In this document: positions 909 to 4,135 of the stretch, in pieces
Numbering within the stretch: position 1 is the stretch's first letter
Layout of the letters: each line of letters begins with the position of its first letter
DNA from: Natrarchaeobaculum aegyptiacum
Lineage (GTDB): Archaea > Halobacteriota > Halobacteria > Halobacteriales > Natrialbaceae
Direction: 5' to 3'
Length of the DNA stretch: 64,000 nucleotides
Assembly: GCF_002156705.1 (NCBI RefSeq)
Contig: NZ_CP019893.1
Location: 3,348,001-3,412,000, forward strand
Program-made: the position numbers and the translations under genes
Notes under the pieces: generated by a model
Database searches by the model: none
The model's input: the letters and a program-made list of their open reading frames with translations, nothing else
What the model was told of the DNA's origin: nothing

Positions 909-2222
909 CTAGAACCGCTCGATCGTGCTCTTGATCGTCTCCGTGATCGACGTGAGCTGGCGACTGCTGGCGGTCGGGGGCTCCTCGAGCGTCTGGTCTC
1001 CCGCAGGCGGGTCGTCCGCGCCGGCAAGCAGCTGTCGGGCGGCGTTGCGACTGTCCTGGACGAACGGACCGAAATCGTCCGGATCGAGGTAGTCGAATCG
1101 CGGGTGCAACGCGAGCGTGAGTGCCATCTCGAGGATCGTCCGCGAGAGCTTGGGGCGGTCGACGACCGGATACTCCTCGTAGAGGATGCTGTGGAGGTGC
1201 AGCAGTTCGCCGCGGAGCAGGTGGCCACCGAGCCCGATGTCGTAATCCGGCGGATCCGGCAGCTCTCGCCCGGTCGCCTGCAGCCAGTAGAGGTACGGAA
1301 AGTCGACGCCAGCTCGGACCGTAAACGGCAGCGACGTCCAGAACCGGGGGTTCACCTCCATCAGTTTGAACTCGCCGGTCTCCGGATCCCGGAGGAACTC
1401 GACCATCGCGAGGCCGTGCCACTCGAGGTGGTCGAGGAGGGCGTGGCCAGCGTCGTACAGTTCGGGGATGTCGACGGACTCTCGATACGCACTCGGACCA
1501 CCGGCGTACTTCCAGCCGCGACGCTGACGGTGCTGGAACGTGGCCACCGCCTCGCCGTCCCGATAGAGCGCGAAGAACGCGTACTCGTCCGAGTCGGGGA
1601 CGTACTCCTGGACGATCGGAACGTGTCCCATCCGGTCGACGAGCCGGGACCGGTCCGGCGCGTGCCCGGCGGGGATGTACCGCGTCGAGAACGGGTTCGT
1701 CTGTCGGGTGTCGAAAGCCGGCGCATACTCGGGCGTGTGAACGGTGTATCGAGGTTTGACGATGCTGTCGTCGTCCCAGGAAGCCCACTCGTCGAATGGC
1801 TTCGTCTCGGGGCTTGCGACCCCTGCCTCGCTCGCCGCGTCGAACAGTCGCACGCGATCCTGGACCGTCCGAAGCTGTGGGAGCGTCGGCCACGCCGTGG
1901 CGATCTCGCTCTCGAGGGATTCGACGTTGCGAGCGAGGACGTAGATGTCAGCCTCCCGAACCGGGATGATCGTGCAGACGTCCTCACGACGGGCGAGCTC
2001 GAGGATCGCGTCTTCGTAGGCCTCGAGGTCGAGTGCGGGATCCGGGACGCGTACGGTCTCGTCGACGTACCGTGACCTGAATCCCGGTGGCGAGCGCTGT
2101 TCTGAGATGGCGATCGTCTCGATGCCGCGCCTCCCGAGTGACCGCATGCACGCGACGCTGCTGGCCGCATCGATCGCTGGAACGACGACTTTCCCGTCGA
2201 CTCCCTGACGAGGACCGTCCAT
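909..2222 (-). CDS. ATP-grasp domain protein (carboxylate-amine ligase type)
   Basis: 437 aa from ATG at 2222. This start is preferred to longer frames because a TATA-like box (2247-2255) sits 28 nt upstream, the usual spacing for a leaderless haloarchaeal mRNA. The N-terminal pre-ATP-grasp domain (VVVPAIDAASSVACMRSLGRRG, residues ~10-30, then a Rossmann-like stretch) leads to the ATP-grasp core, with IVKPRYTVH (Lys near residue 165), IVQEYVPDSDEYAFF, and KLMEVNPRFWTSLP, whose Glu and Asn bind Mg-ATP. Such enzymes join a carboxylate to an amine through an acyl-phosphate. The substrate is unknown; haloarchaea carry many orphan members, and no partner biosynthetic genes are next to it. Confidence 0.8.
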   Translation of the reverse strand: MDGPRQGVDGKVVVPAIDAASSVACMRSLGRRGIETIAISEQRSPPGFRSRYVDETVRVPDPALDLEAYEDAILELARREDVCTIIPVREADIYVLARNVESLESEIATAWPTLPQLRTVQDRVRLFDAASEAGVASPETKPFDEWASWDDDSIVKPRYTVHTPEYAPAFDTRQTNPFSTRYIPAGHAPDRSRLVDRMGHVPIVQEYVPDSDEYAFFALYRDGEAVATFQHRQRRGWKYAGGPSAYRESVDIPELYDAGHALLDHLEWHGLAMVEFLRDPETGEFKLMEVNPRFWTSLPFTVRAGVDFPYLYWLQATGRELPDPPDYDIGLGGHLLRGELLHLHSILYEEYPVVDRPKLSRTILEMALTLALHPRFDYLDPDDFGPFVQDSRNAARQLLAGADDPPAGDQTLEEPPTASSRQLTSITETIKSTIERF

Positions 2223-2246
2223 GCGACCACCGTGACACCATCGGTG

Positions 2247-2255
2247 TATAGTTAA
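2247..2255 (-). promoter_or_regulatory. TATA-like box of the ATP-grasp gene
   Basis: On the minus strand this reads TTAACTATA, centred about 28 nt before the ATG at 2222. The spacing predicts a transcript starting at or next to the start codon. Confidence 0.5.
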
Positions 2256-2318
2256 TCGTTGGTACGGCGGCGCGTCTGCGGCGGTAATCGACCCATATCG
2301 TTGTCCCGGTGACTTCCT

Positions 2319-2368
2319 CCCCACCCTACTCGCTCACGGCTTGCGCCGCTCGCTTCTTGAGGGTGGGG
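2319..2368 (-). ncRNA. Right-end hairpin, probable 3' scaffold of the TnpB guide (omega) RNA
   Basis: CCCCACCCT at 2319-2327 pairs with AGGGTGGGG at 2360-2368 around an inner G+C-rich loop that could fold further. The hairpin overlaps the last codons of tnpB. In characterised IS200/IS605 elements the omega RNA derives from exactly this 3' end of tnpB plus the element's right end, and its guide is the flanking DNA just outside. Here the guide would be read on the minus strand from about 2309 downward (starting GGGACAACG). The structure is seen; the RNA is inferred by family. Confidence 0.4.
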
Positions 2369-3555
2369 CTTCCTGTTTCCACGACGCGCTTTGCAGGAAC
2401 CGAATCGGTCCCCGTAGGGAGCGCAGTCTCCGCAGGCGTTGATTCGGGACAGCCCGTCCCTACTTGTTTCAGTCCGCGCACCAAGATGTTGTAGGCCGCG
2501 TTCCAGTCTCTGTCCGCCGTGAATCCACAGGAAGGACAGGAGTGTTTGCGGACCCACAACGGCTTGTCTGACTCGGCACCGCAGGCCGCGCACTCTTTGG
2601 TCGTCCCGTCCGGATCGACGGCCACGAAGTGTGTTCCTTCCCGTTCGCACTTGTACTCGAGCATCCGGAGGAACGTTCCCCACGCTGCTCCGGCTCGGTT
2701 GCGGCTGTTCGTTGGGAGTTCCATCAACCCCTTGGCGTCGAGGTCTTCGACCGCAACGAGGTCGTACTCTCGAGCGTAGTGGTTAGAGAGCTTGTGCAAG
2801 AAGTCCCGACGCTTCCGTTGCATATCGGCGTGGCGCTTGGCGACGACTCGCTGTTGCTTGCGGTAGTTCGACGAGCCGTGTTCTTTGCGTGAGAGTTTCC
2901 GTTGCTCGCGTTCCAGCCGCTCGCGTTCGTCCGAGAGGTCGGGACGTTCGACAGCGGTTCCGTCCGTGTCGTGAGCGTACTTCAGGATGCCCACGTCGAT
3001 CCCGACACAATCCTCGAGTGTCTTGGGTTTCTCTGGTGGTTCGTCCTTGGTTTCGATTCCAAGGACGGCAAACCACTCGCCGGTCGGTTCTTGCTTGACG
3101 ACGATCTCTTTGATCGTAGCGTCGCCGGGAACGTCGCGGTGGTAGACCATTGGAATATCGCCGATTTTGGAAAGAGAAAGTACAGCACGGCCACTCGTGT
3201 TTTTGAGTTCGAAGCCGGTTTGACTGTACGTGATCGAGCGATATTCCTTCGGAGCCTTCCACTTAAGTTCGCCGACACGATAGCCGTTGTCTTTTCGCCC
3301 TTTCAGCGTCGAGAGGTTGTCATACAGCCGCTGTACGACCTTCTGTAGCACCTTCGAGTGGACTTGTTTCAGGTCGGTCCACCAGTCCTTGAGGTCGGGA
3401 AGAACCGACTGCTCGGAGTATGCCGACGTGCCGTCCTCTCGGTTGAGCCGGTACAAGAAGTGGTTGTAGACCTGTCGGCAGGTATCGACAGTCCACGCTA
3501 GCCGTTCGTGGAGTTCGTCGGTCGGGTTGAGTCGATACCTGTAGTTGTAGCGCAT
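2326..3555 (-). CDS. tnpB: TnpB, RNA-guided nuclease of IS200/IS605-type element
   Basis: 409 aa, ATG at 3555. The N-terminal helix-turn-helix-like part (RYNYRYRLNPTDELHERL) is followed by the OrfB wedge region. A split RuvC nuclease follows: first Asp in CVGIDVGILKYA (~residue 190), Glu in LVAVEDLDAKGL (~272), last Asp in ADRDWNAAYNIL (~350). Before the last motif lies a zinc ribbon with CAAC and CPSC. All three acidic residues and four cysteines are present, so the protein looks catalytically intact. The family makes guide-RNA-directed DNA breaks near the element's ends. It is preceded by the 49-aa gene with a 3-nt gap and was probably expressed with it. Its C-terminal codons overlap the right-end hairpin. 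Confidence 0.93.
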   Translation of the reverse strand: MRYNYRYRLNPTDELHERLAWTVDTCRQVYNHFLYRLNREDGTSAYSEQSVLPDLKDWWTDLKQVHSKVLQKVVQRLYDNLSTLKGRKDNGYRVGELKWKAPKEYRSITYSQTGFELKNTSGRAVLSLSKIGDIPMVYHRDVPGDATIKEIVVKQEPTGEWFAVLGIETKDEPPEKPKTLEDCVGIDVGILKYAHDTDGTAVERPDLSDERERLEREQRKLSRKEHGSSNYRKQQRVVAKRHADMQRKRRDFLHKLSNHYAREYDLVAVEDLDAKGLMELPTNSRNRAGAAWGTFLRMLEYKCEREGTHFVAVDPDGTTKECAACGAESDKPLWVRKHSCPSCGFTADRDWNAAYNILVRGLKQVGTGCPESTPAETALPTGTDSVPAKRVVETGSPTLKKRAAQAVSE

Positions 3556-3558
3556 GGT

Positions 3559-3708
3559 CTACTCGTCTTCGTCGGACGGATCGGTGACGCGGACGACTTT
3601 GACAGTGGCACCCCGCCACCGTTTGGGAACGAGTACGTGAGCGCCATTGCCGGTTGGTTTGACTTCGGCTTCGTGAACTTCGTGCCCTTCGACTTCGTAC
3701 CGATCCAT
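3559..3708 (-). CDS. Small transposon-associated protein (DUF2080-like)
   Basis: 49 aa from ATG at 3708 (MDRYEVEGHEVHEAEVKPTG). The stop at 3559 lies 3 nt before the tnpB start, so the two form a tight unit. The middle of the protein (GNGAHVLVPKRWRGATVKVV) looks like one half of an AbrB/SpoVT swapped-hairpin DNA-binding fold, with a V-x-V-P-K-x-W-x-G pattern. Proteins of this kind (DUF2080) are found next to TnpB in many haloarchaeal IS elements, and their role is unknown. Regulation of tnpB or binding of the element's ends is my inference from size, fold hint and position. Confidence 0.75.
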   Translation of the reverse strand: MDRYEVEGHEVHEAEVKPTGNGAHVLVPKRWRGATVKVVRVTDPSDEDE

Positions 3709-3834
3709 TACTAATGTTTAAACTAAGTAGAAACATAAAGCTACCGATGGCGTGGGCCTGCGGGCCTGCTGTAGAACTGTCAAAGAAACACGAGCGGCGT
3801 TGACGAGACGCAAAGTGTTCTCGTTCGCACACCA

Positions 3835-3960
3835 GAAATCGAATATTTCTGGGGACGTCCTCAGAAACGCTCGCGTTTCTGATGGGCTGCACAAGAGCTT
3901 GCTCTTGTGAACGCTGTATCCCCTCCCTGCTCGCGCCTTCGGCGCTCGCTGAGGAAGGGG
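3835..3960. repeat. Palindrome cluster at the left end of the TnpB element
   Basis: Four consecutive inverted repeats: AGAAATCGAATATTTCT (3835-3851), TCAGAAACG with CGTTTCTGA (3861-3882, four-base loop), CACAAGAGC with GCTCTTGTG (3890-3909, two-base loop), and GCGCC/GGCGC inside an imperfect longer stem whose arms are the C-rich stretch at ~3920 and GGAAGGGG (to 3960). IS200/IS605 left ends carry such hairpins as TnpA recognition sites. No gene is visible between 3709 and about 4130 apart from these structures. Confidence 0.6.
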
Positions 3961-4135
3961 CATTAGCGCCTCGATTTAGGTAACAGGTCGAGGGTGGGCG
4001 TCACCACGCACTCGAGCCACGCGGGGAAGCCACCGATCGCTATATCTGCCCGGGCCGTGAGACGCCTGTATGGTCGACGTGGGTACTGCAGACCTCGAAC
4101 GGTACGTGCGACTCGTCGGTCCGGATCCAGATCCG

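Follow-up and report, generated by a model that had tools for sequence, protein, structure and literature searches.

We analyzed a transposable element of Natrarchaeobaculum aegyptiacum that lies on the minus strand at 2309–3979 of a 64,000-nt stretch of contig NZ_CP019893.1 (positions 3,348,001 to 3,412,000; hereafter, the window). It carries the gene of a TnpB of the RNA-guided endonuclease family and, 3 nt upstream of it, a gene for a 49-aa protein of the DUF2080 family (3559–3708, minus strand). Comparisons across the family make it probable that this small protein is a transposon-borne autorepressor, limiting its own nuclease and guide RNA via a 19-bp operator predicted at 3716–3734. The way in which transposons protect their host from a guide-directed nuclease of their own is, to our knowledge, an open question. 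As the sequence evidence names a DNA site, a residue likely to recognize it, and exchanges of the leader protein that took place in nature, the question becomes testable with the 49-aa protein and a 19-bp duplex, and DUF2080, a family without a stated function, gains a candidate role.

In the proposed mechanism, a promoter ahead of the DUF2080 gene would give one transcript with DUF2080, tnpB, and, at its 3′ end, the guide RNA. A DUF2080 dimer would occupy the operator, between a TATA-like box and its own start codon, and block transcription of DUF2080, tnpB, and the guide RNA derived from the tnpB mRNA. TnpB is able to produce its guide RNA out of the mRNA that encodes it (PMC10278001, consulted in part), so repression would limit the guide along with the enzyme, unless the guide has a separate promoter. 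The nuclease would be low once the element has settled and, by inference only, might rise in a burst on entry into a repressor-free cell. DUF2080 would be one of several exchangeable leaders, with ribbon-helix-helix (RHH)-like and short MazE-type proteins in the same slot elsewhere. The sequence comparisons show the order of the genes, the selection acting on DUF2080, a site with a family-wide position, the presence or absence of the site with DUF2080, and the covariation of residue 26 with the bases of the site; from these, we infer the single transcript, dimerization, binding, repression, and the effect on the guide RNA. The initial annotation of the window had proposed a regulated pair, and this is now the likeliest reading.

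The DUF2080 Protein and Its Genomic Context

The 49-aa protein passes the NCBIfam model NF033496, "DUF2080 family transposase-associated protein," with 62.8 bits (cut-off 22) and falls just below the cut-off of the Pfam model DUF2080 (PF09853; 20.6 bits, E 0.0004, cut-off 21.5). It is thus a member of an already named family; the family names contain no function, and what is new here is the function proposed. The reading frame is under purifying selection, as nonsynonymous divergence (pN) was lower than synonymous divergence (pS) in 120 of 120 pairs of 16 copies from the window's clade. Against the copies of Natrialba aegyptia (L062) and Natrarchaeobius chitinivorans (L063), pN was 0 and pS 0.29, all compared residues being identical. 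The initial annotation had described a small companion directly in front of tnpB, with the conservation of its frame as the possible weak point; the companion is there, 3 nt upstream, and it is both conserved and under selection.

To see the family at large, we collected 110 DUF2080 loci: 61 related genomes contributed 30 of their 40 matches, and named genomes the best 80 of 202. Over 600 nt, 104 of the loci were distinct; at least four of the six exact repeats represent the same locus, or its copy, in both collections. An open reading frame (ORF) with a TnpB-type N terminus followed DUF2080 at a distance of −4 to +9 nt in 101 of the 110 loci (95 of the 104 distinct ones), and 79 of these 101 ORFs were at least 330 aa long. 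The nine exceptions comprise two loci with an intervening 189-aa ORF, two at contig ends, and five that look broken or different. The TnpBs behind DUF2080 belong to at least four lineages with little sequence in common. Outside haloarchaea, DUF2080 proteins were found ahead of other transposase types or without a transposase (L232, L234, and L239–L243 among them); these transposases presumably are of types resembling IS66 and IS1182. No TnpA match lay within 1 kb of 33 of 40 DUF2080 matches, and in the other 7, a divergent tnpA adjoins DUF2080 within that distance. A 189-aa ORF in L039 (1626–2195; G000:C1 about 508780–509349) and L033 overlaps the DUF2080 stop by 4 nt; in L039, TnpB comes next, and the L039 protein matched no Pfam or NCBIfam family above threshold.

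Predicted Operator

The predicted operator of the window's element, GTTTCTAC-TTA-GTTTAAAC (3716–3734, minus strand), was recognized by family-wide comparison and has one base in common with a TATA-like box, TTTATG, identified by eye at 3734–3739 (minus strand). Its motif spans 19 bp and consists of two boxes, GTnnnnAC-nnn-GTnnnnAC. Such a site started at −28 to −20 before the DUF2080 start in 94 of the 110 loci (88 of the 104 distinct ones); after dereplication of the 45-nt upstream stretches, it was present in 21 of 27, compared with 2.5 expected from shuffles. Among 40 tnpB genes lacking DUF2080, which were the top-listed among the matches listed and not a random draw, none had the site at that position and 1 had it anywhere within −45 to −1.

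The six inner pairs of the two boxes played no part in the definition of the motif. In 60 unique sites, 3.95 of the 6 pairs were complementary on average, compared with 3.42 when halves were exchanged between sites (none of 5,000 shuffles reached the observed value) and at most 2.18 when the center was slid; the exchange of halves ignores relatedness, whereas the slid-center control retains it. The same 8-3-8 layout occurs before DUF2080-type genes outside haloarchaea, as AGATATCT-AAT-AGATATCT in L232 and L233, ahead of other transposases. For a test of symmetry in these genomes, 25 of 30 loci were entered, leaving 22 after dereplication; a symmetry score of 7 or 8 was reached by 7 of the 22 compared with 1.24 expected. 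Near-perfect sites resembling AGATATCT-AAT-AGATATCT were seen upstream of DUF2080 in several of the non-haloarchaeal loci.

Covariation of Residue 26 and the Site

In 69 unique combinations of protein and site, DUF2080 residue 26 had its highest shared information with site positions 3 and 17, a mirror-symmetric pair. At this residue, leucine is usually accompanied by T3/A17, tyrosine usually by A3 or C3 and T17, and isoleucine usually by C3/T17. On the TnpB tree, four independent contrasts could be drawn for the association of L26 with T3 and with A17, with 3.8 in favor and 0 opposite for each, four being too few for significance in a sign test. A change of this kind is found within the window's clade, where L073 (tyrosine, GTATCTACTTCGTAGATAC), with the site GTATCTAC-TTC-GTAGATAC, is sister to L066 (leucine, GTTTCTACGTAGTGTAAAC). 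On the strength of this covariation, residue 26 of DUF2080 probably reads the operator.

Exchange of Leader Proteins

The slot ahead of tnpB can be held by other proteins. The 40 tnpB genes without DUF2080 were led by an RHH-like protein in 20 cases (2 of them broken), by TnpA in 5, and by another small ORF in 1; no leader was recognized in 14. The RHH-like leader is about 40 aa long and reads as a ribbon-helix-helix protein by its sequence pattern (VATRKNISIRDDQEEWIQENHLNLSSFVQEKLDELIEERES), and of two such leaders searched against Pfam, one gave a sub-threshold CcdA match (E 0.029). A profile of the RHH-like leader had 29 matches in 20 of the 61 genomes; among the 25 that were read (the 4 partial ones being excluded), 24 stood directly ahead of a TnpB N terminus and 1 at a contig end. 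In L222, L223, L224, and L227, the leader of TnpB is a MazE-type protein of about 40 aa, that of L222 being a PF04014 match. In L217 (853–996; G000:C1 about 2464752–2464895), we noticed a 47-aa leader of another type (VTKQLKVSDTVYDNLDELKDEEGHTSFDSVLRTLL...) that shares 4 nt with the lineage-B TnpB behind it and has a divergent tnpA upstream; this is possibly a further leader class.

On a quick TnpB tree of 87 of the 99 TnpBs, distant and short rows being excluded, DUF2080 and RHH leaders have switched nine times, six of them on starred (well-supported) branches. The RHH-led TnpB of L283 is 91% identical to the DUF2080-led TnpB of L098 and 80% identical to the nearest RHH-led one. Within the same TnpB clade, the two-box site was present upstream of the leader gene in 58 of 67 DUF2080-led copies vs. 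1 of 19 RHH-led copies. Reduced to six independent pairs on starred branches, the association of site and leader type had 5.0 pairs in the same direction and 0.1 in the opposite one (median P value 0.06). Repeats that might be operators are visible for the RHH-like leader too, as TTTACACA-ACT-TGTGTAAA in L262. The evidence as a whole also suggests repeated recruitment of antitoxin-type DNA-binding proteins to govern TnpB.

Evidence against Autorepression and Alternative Explanations

Several observations weigh against autorepression by DUF2080. The window's own site is complementary in six of eight pairs, a value reached by 20% of shuffles and thus not significantly symmetric, so that the case for an operator rests on the family. 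Within the family, 2 of the 6 inner pairs were complementary in just 48 and 32% of the 60 unique sites, and 16 of the 110 loci had no motif at the expected place, including both loci of TnpB lineage D (L053 and L054) and L055 of lineage C; outside haloarchaea, 15 of the 22 loci scored below 7. Of 22 GT-to-AC spacings compared, 15 was the strongest (21 of 27), with spacings of 6 and 17 also reaching 14 of 27 and the others at most 7. The 40 controls were read upstream of tnpB and not of a leader gene, which the comparison of leader genes mends for RHH-led copies only. A leader is evidently not required, as 14 of the 40 controls had none recognized, and DUF2080 may move with its upstream DNA as one cassette, in which case the covariation would partly be hitch-hiking, seen in few independent pairs. 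A search of the whole genome with the pattern of the window's clade, GTTTCTACNTNGTNTAAAC, allowing up to two mismatches, had the window's site as its sole match, which gives no indication of a larger regulon; as the reversed control also matched once, a single match says little except that further sites are not numerous.

The fold of the protein adds to these points. The initial annotation had seen in the 49-aa protein a pattern like half of an AbrB/SpoVT DNA-binding hairpin, and a short motif resemblance does exist: alignment of DUF2080 with AbrB/MazE/SpoVT by hhalign gave E 3e-4 and a probability of about 40%, over 9–11 columns only. Two AlphaFold2 monomer models (mean predicted local distance difference test scores of 63 and 76) had no structure match in the PDB by Foldseek, nor had the second model by VIA-align, and a sequence-profile search of the PDB had no AbrB/MazE chain among its matches.

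Autorepression has to be weighed against three other explanations. The main rival holds that DUF2080 is antitoxin-like, binding TnpB or its guide RNA directly and keeping the nuclease inactive, with DNA binding second, as in type II toxin–antitoxin systems. The order and spacing of the genes resemble those of antitoxin–toxin pairs, and RHH and MazE, whose likenesses take the same slot, are two common types of antitoxin. An SpnP2/DUF2080 protein, possibly related to the present family, is furthermore among the experimentally validated antitoxins of nuclease toxins in the part of PMC10440598 consulted. If DUF2080 fitted one protein surface, however, one would not expect it to accompany at least four distant TnpB lineages as well as other transposases, or to give way to an RHH protein before a 91%-identical TnpB, and 49 aa leave little besides the proposed DNA-binding part. 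Because one leader type serves distant nucleases and transposases, yet is replaced before near-identical TnpBs, we consider a direct antitoxin role unlikely. A broader variant is that stand-alone archaeal TnpB elements are toxin–antitoxin-like operons in which a swappable leader, DUF2080, RHH, or MazE type, both represses the operon and restrains the nuclease, the whole forming a guide-directed addiction or homing module. This appears rather unlikely; if true, the nuclease would be released upon loss of the element or its arrival in a naive cell.

Two explanations remain. The site may be a mere conserved promoter element, for example for TFB or an activator, that DUF2080 does not bind: it adjoins the TATA-like box, and haloarchaeal promoters contain other elements besides. 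A plain promoter element would nevertheless hardly be symmetric family-wide, vary in step with DUF2080 residue 26, recur with its layout unchanged ahead of some DUF2080 genes of other archaea, and be missing from 18 of 19 RHH-led relatives that, by eye, share the upstream stretch GGCCCACAGGCCCACG, and we regard this explanation as very unlikely. Most improbable of all appears a role of DUF2080 as an accessory factor of transposition, one that would attach to the transposon's DNA close to its left end and aid a TnpA acting in trans. Such a role would suit the several kinds of transposase headed by DUF2080 and the divergent tnpA adjoining 7 of its 40 matches; the conserved site, however, is at the promoter rather than at the transposon ends and is absent from those same 18 RHH-led relatives, and the other 33 matches lack a TnpA match nearby. 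Autorepression through the predicted operator remains the reading that we favor.

Comparison with Known Systems

The element shares several features with haloarchaeal elements of the IS1341 type and the IS200/IS605 group, namely TnpB without tnpA, hairpins near both ends, and, as predicted in our case, no target duplication and a guide RNA that overlaps the 3′ end of tnpB. The part of PMC3119063 consulted describes tnpB without tnpA as abundant in Natronomonas and Haloquadratum, together with near-terminal palindromes, and that of PMC12558985 the expression of guide RNAs with a right-end hairpin from TnpB elements in Halobacterium. The leader repressor with an operator that we propose is absent from those descriptions, as far as they were available. 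With the DUF2080 family (NF033496/PF09853), the small protein shares the passed NCBIfam cut-off and an association with transposases already present in the family name; the operator, the specificity residue, and the exchange of leaders go beyond it.

Autoregulated type II antitoxins such as CcdA, MazE6, and Escherichia coli MazE offer another parallel, with a small first gene, an operator of about 18–19 bp in the promoter (predicted in our case), and a nuclease as the second gene. The RHH-type MazE6 has an 18-bp operator at the −10 region, and the RHH domain of CcdA is contrasted with the AbrB domain of E. coli MazE (PMC9477884, consulted in part). A common origin of DUF2080 and MazE/AbrB is at most putative. 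Unlike in type II toxin–antitoxin systems, the second gene encodes a guide-directed DNA nuclease, and neutralization by DUF2080 is putative. A literature search found no regulator of a TnpB element, no function or operator for DUF2080, and no leader exchange; as most subscription journals were outside the search and sources were seen in part, we do not claim absence in print.

Element Boundaries, TnpB, and Predicted Guide RNA

The element is of the IS1341 type within the IS200/IS605 superfamily and lacks tnpA; at 1671 bp, it has the same length as its sister copy L065. Its last base is at 2309, because the end GGTGGGGAGGAAGTCAC is common to copies at differing sites and the base following it varies. 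Other genomes have this right end in their copies of the element type, as do L021 and L022 in the same genome; L074 differs by one base. The left boundary was placed by copy comparison at 3979, after the sequence TTAC (3980–3983, minus strand), the putative target or transposon-associated motif (TAM). TTAC is found at the left boundary of 14 of 15 readable sister copies, the exception being CTAT in L068. Among five left-end fragments in the same genome, read by eye, TTAC is found only at L023, with TTAG at L024 and L030, GTAC at L026, and TTAA at L029; as four of the five read otherwise, we propose TTAC for the window's element type only.

An empty site for the Natronorubrum copy L073 was found in a sister genome (L300), where TTAC is followed directly by the sequence of the would-be guide of L073; 31 extra bases just before TTAC make this a clean junction on the right side only. 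It agrees with an insertion on the 3′ side of TTAC that left no target duplication, and with TTAC as the TAM next to which cleavage would occur. A search for an empty site of the insertion in the window gave no close relative; long left-flank matches were 65–77% identical and ended at window position 2225 or earlier. Profile searches of the genome gave 24 TnpB matches (several of them fragments), 2 DUF2080 matches, and 2 Y1 TnpA matches, none of the latter within 1 kb of the element; the genome measures 3.93 Mb, and G007, a genome of the same family, matched both flanks of L073 at 100%, in line with a placement in the Natrialbaceae. The initial annotation's description of a TnpA-less TnpB element is therefore accurate, and the element looks intact. 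Its suggestion of adoption into another role found no evidence; copies are present at many sites, and one has an empty site in a sister genome.

The tnpB gene (2326–3555, minus strand) encodes 409 aa and passes the NCBIfam model guided_TnpB (NF040570) with 267 bits (cut-off 100). Aligned with ISDra2 TnpB (8bf8; E 6e-35), it has the three RuvC acids (D/E/D) and the four zinc-ribbon cysteines in register, in agreement with the initial annotation; taking these residues to have the roles that they presumably have in 8bf8, the protein appears catalytically intact.

The right end and predicted omega-RNA scaffold (2309–2440, minus strand, the 5′ limit being a guess) overlaps the tnpB 3′ end and was delimited by right-end comparison, folding, and hairpin conservation. 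Among 12 of the 17 distinct right ends, the other 5 having inserts or being of another type, 98.8% of paired cells of the hairpin were kept, with one compensated pair. The 172-nt 3′ region was more stable than shuffles (z −2.9, 1 of 200 shuffles being as good), and Rfam had no match in the window. Boundary, conservation, and folding all agree with the omega-RNA type of hairpin previously recognized here, but a hairpin of single-stranded transposon DNA would fit the pattern as well as a guide RNA would. From the position of the right end and, for copy L073, from the empty site, a 20-nt guide, CGGGACAACGATATGGGTCG, is predicted at 2289–2308 (minus strand). It adjoins the right end just outside the element, as proposed before, and its first base would be the C at 2308 (CGGGACAACG...), one position ahead of the start given initially, GGGACAACG. 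The longer right ends of L021, L022, and L029 in the same genome had suggested a decayed guide RNA in the window; we rejected this, and because intact sister copies mostly share the window's form, it is the longer ends that carry inserts.

Left-End Hairpins, Twin-Hairpin Modules, and the Neighboring Gene

The left end of the element contains a hairpin at 3920–3960 (minus strand) that is kept in sister copies and a twin-hairpin insert at 3858–3913 (approximate limits) that is missing from L063 and L065. The palindromes at 3835–3960, initially put forward as a binding site of the 49-aa protein, include this conserved left-end hairpin and this insert, and an operator within them was ruled out on these grounds.

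Twin-hairpin modules of about 45–60 bp, consisting of a hairpin, a GGGCTG-like spacer, and a second hairpin, are variably present between element copies. They were seen in the right ends of L021, L022, and L029 and in the left ends of L062 and the window's element; in L029 and L048, a module lies within the zinc-finger/RuvC-III part of tnpB, where the reading frame is unbroken. They resemble the short mobile repeats that target palindrome-associated transposable elements (PATEs) and IS605-type elements in Haloquadratum according to the consulted part of PMC3119063. In L026 (1560–1780), the transposon right end forms a tandem repeat together with guide-like DNA after it. The open frame of the gene neighboring the element in the window (909–2324) begins inside the transposon right end; as its likeness to relatives ends near window position 2225, the gene probably starts in fact with the ATG at 2222.

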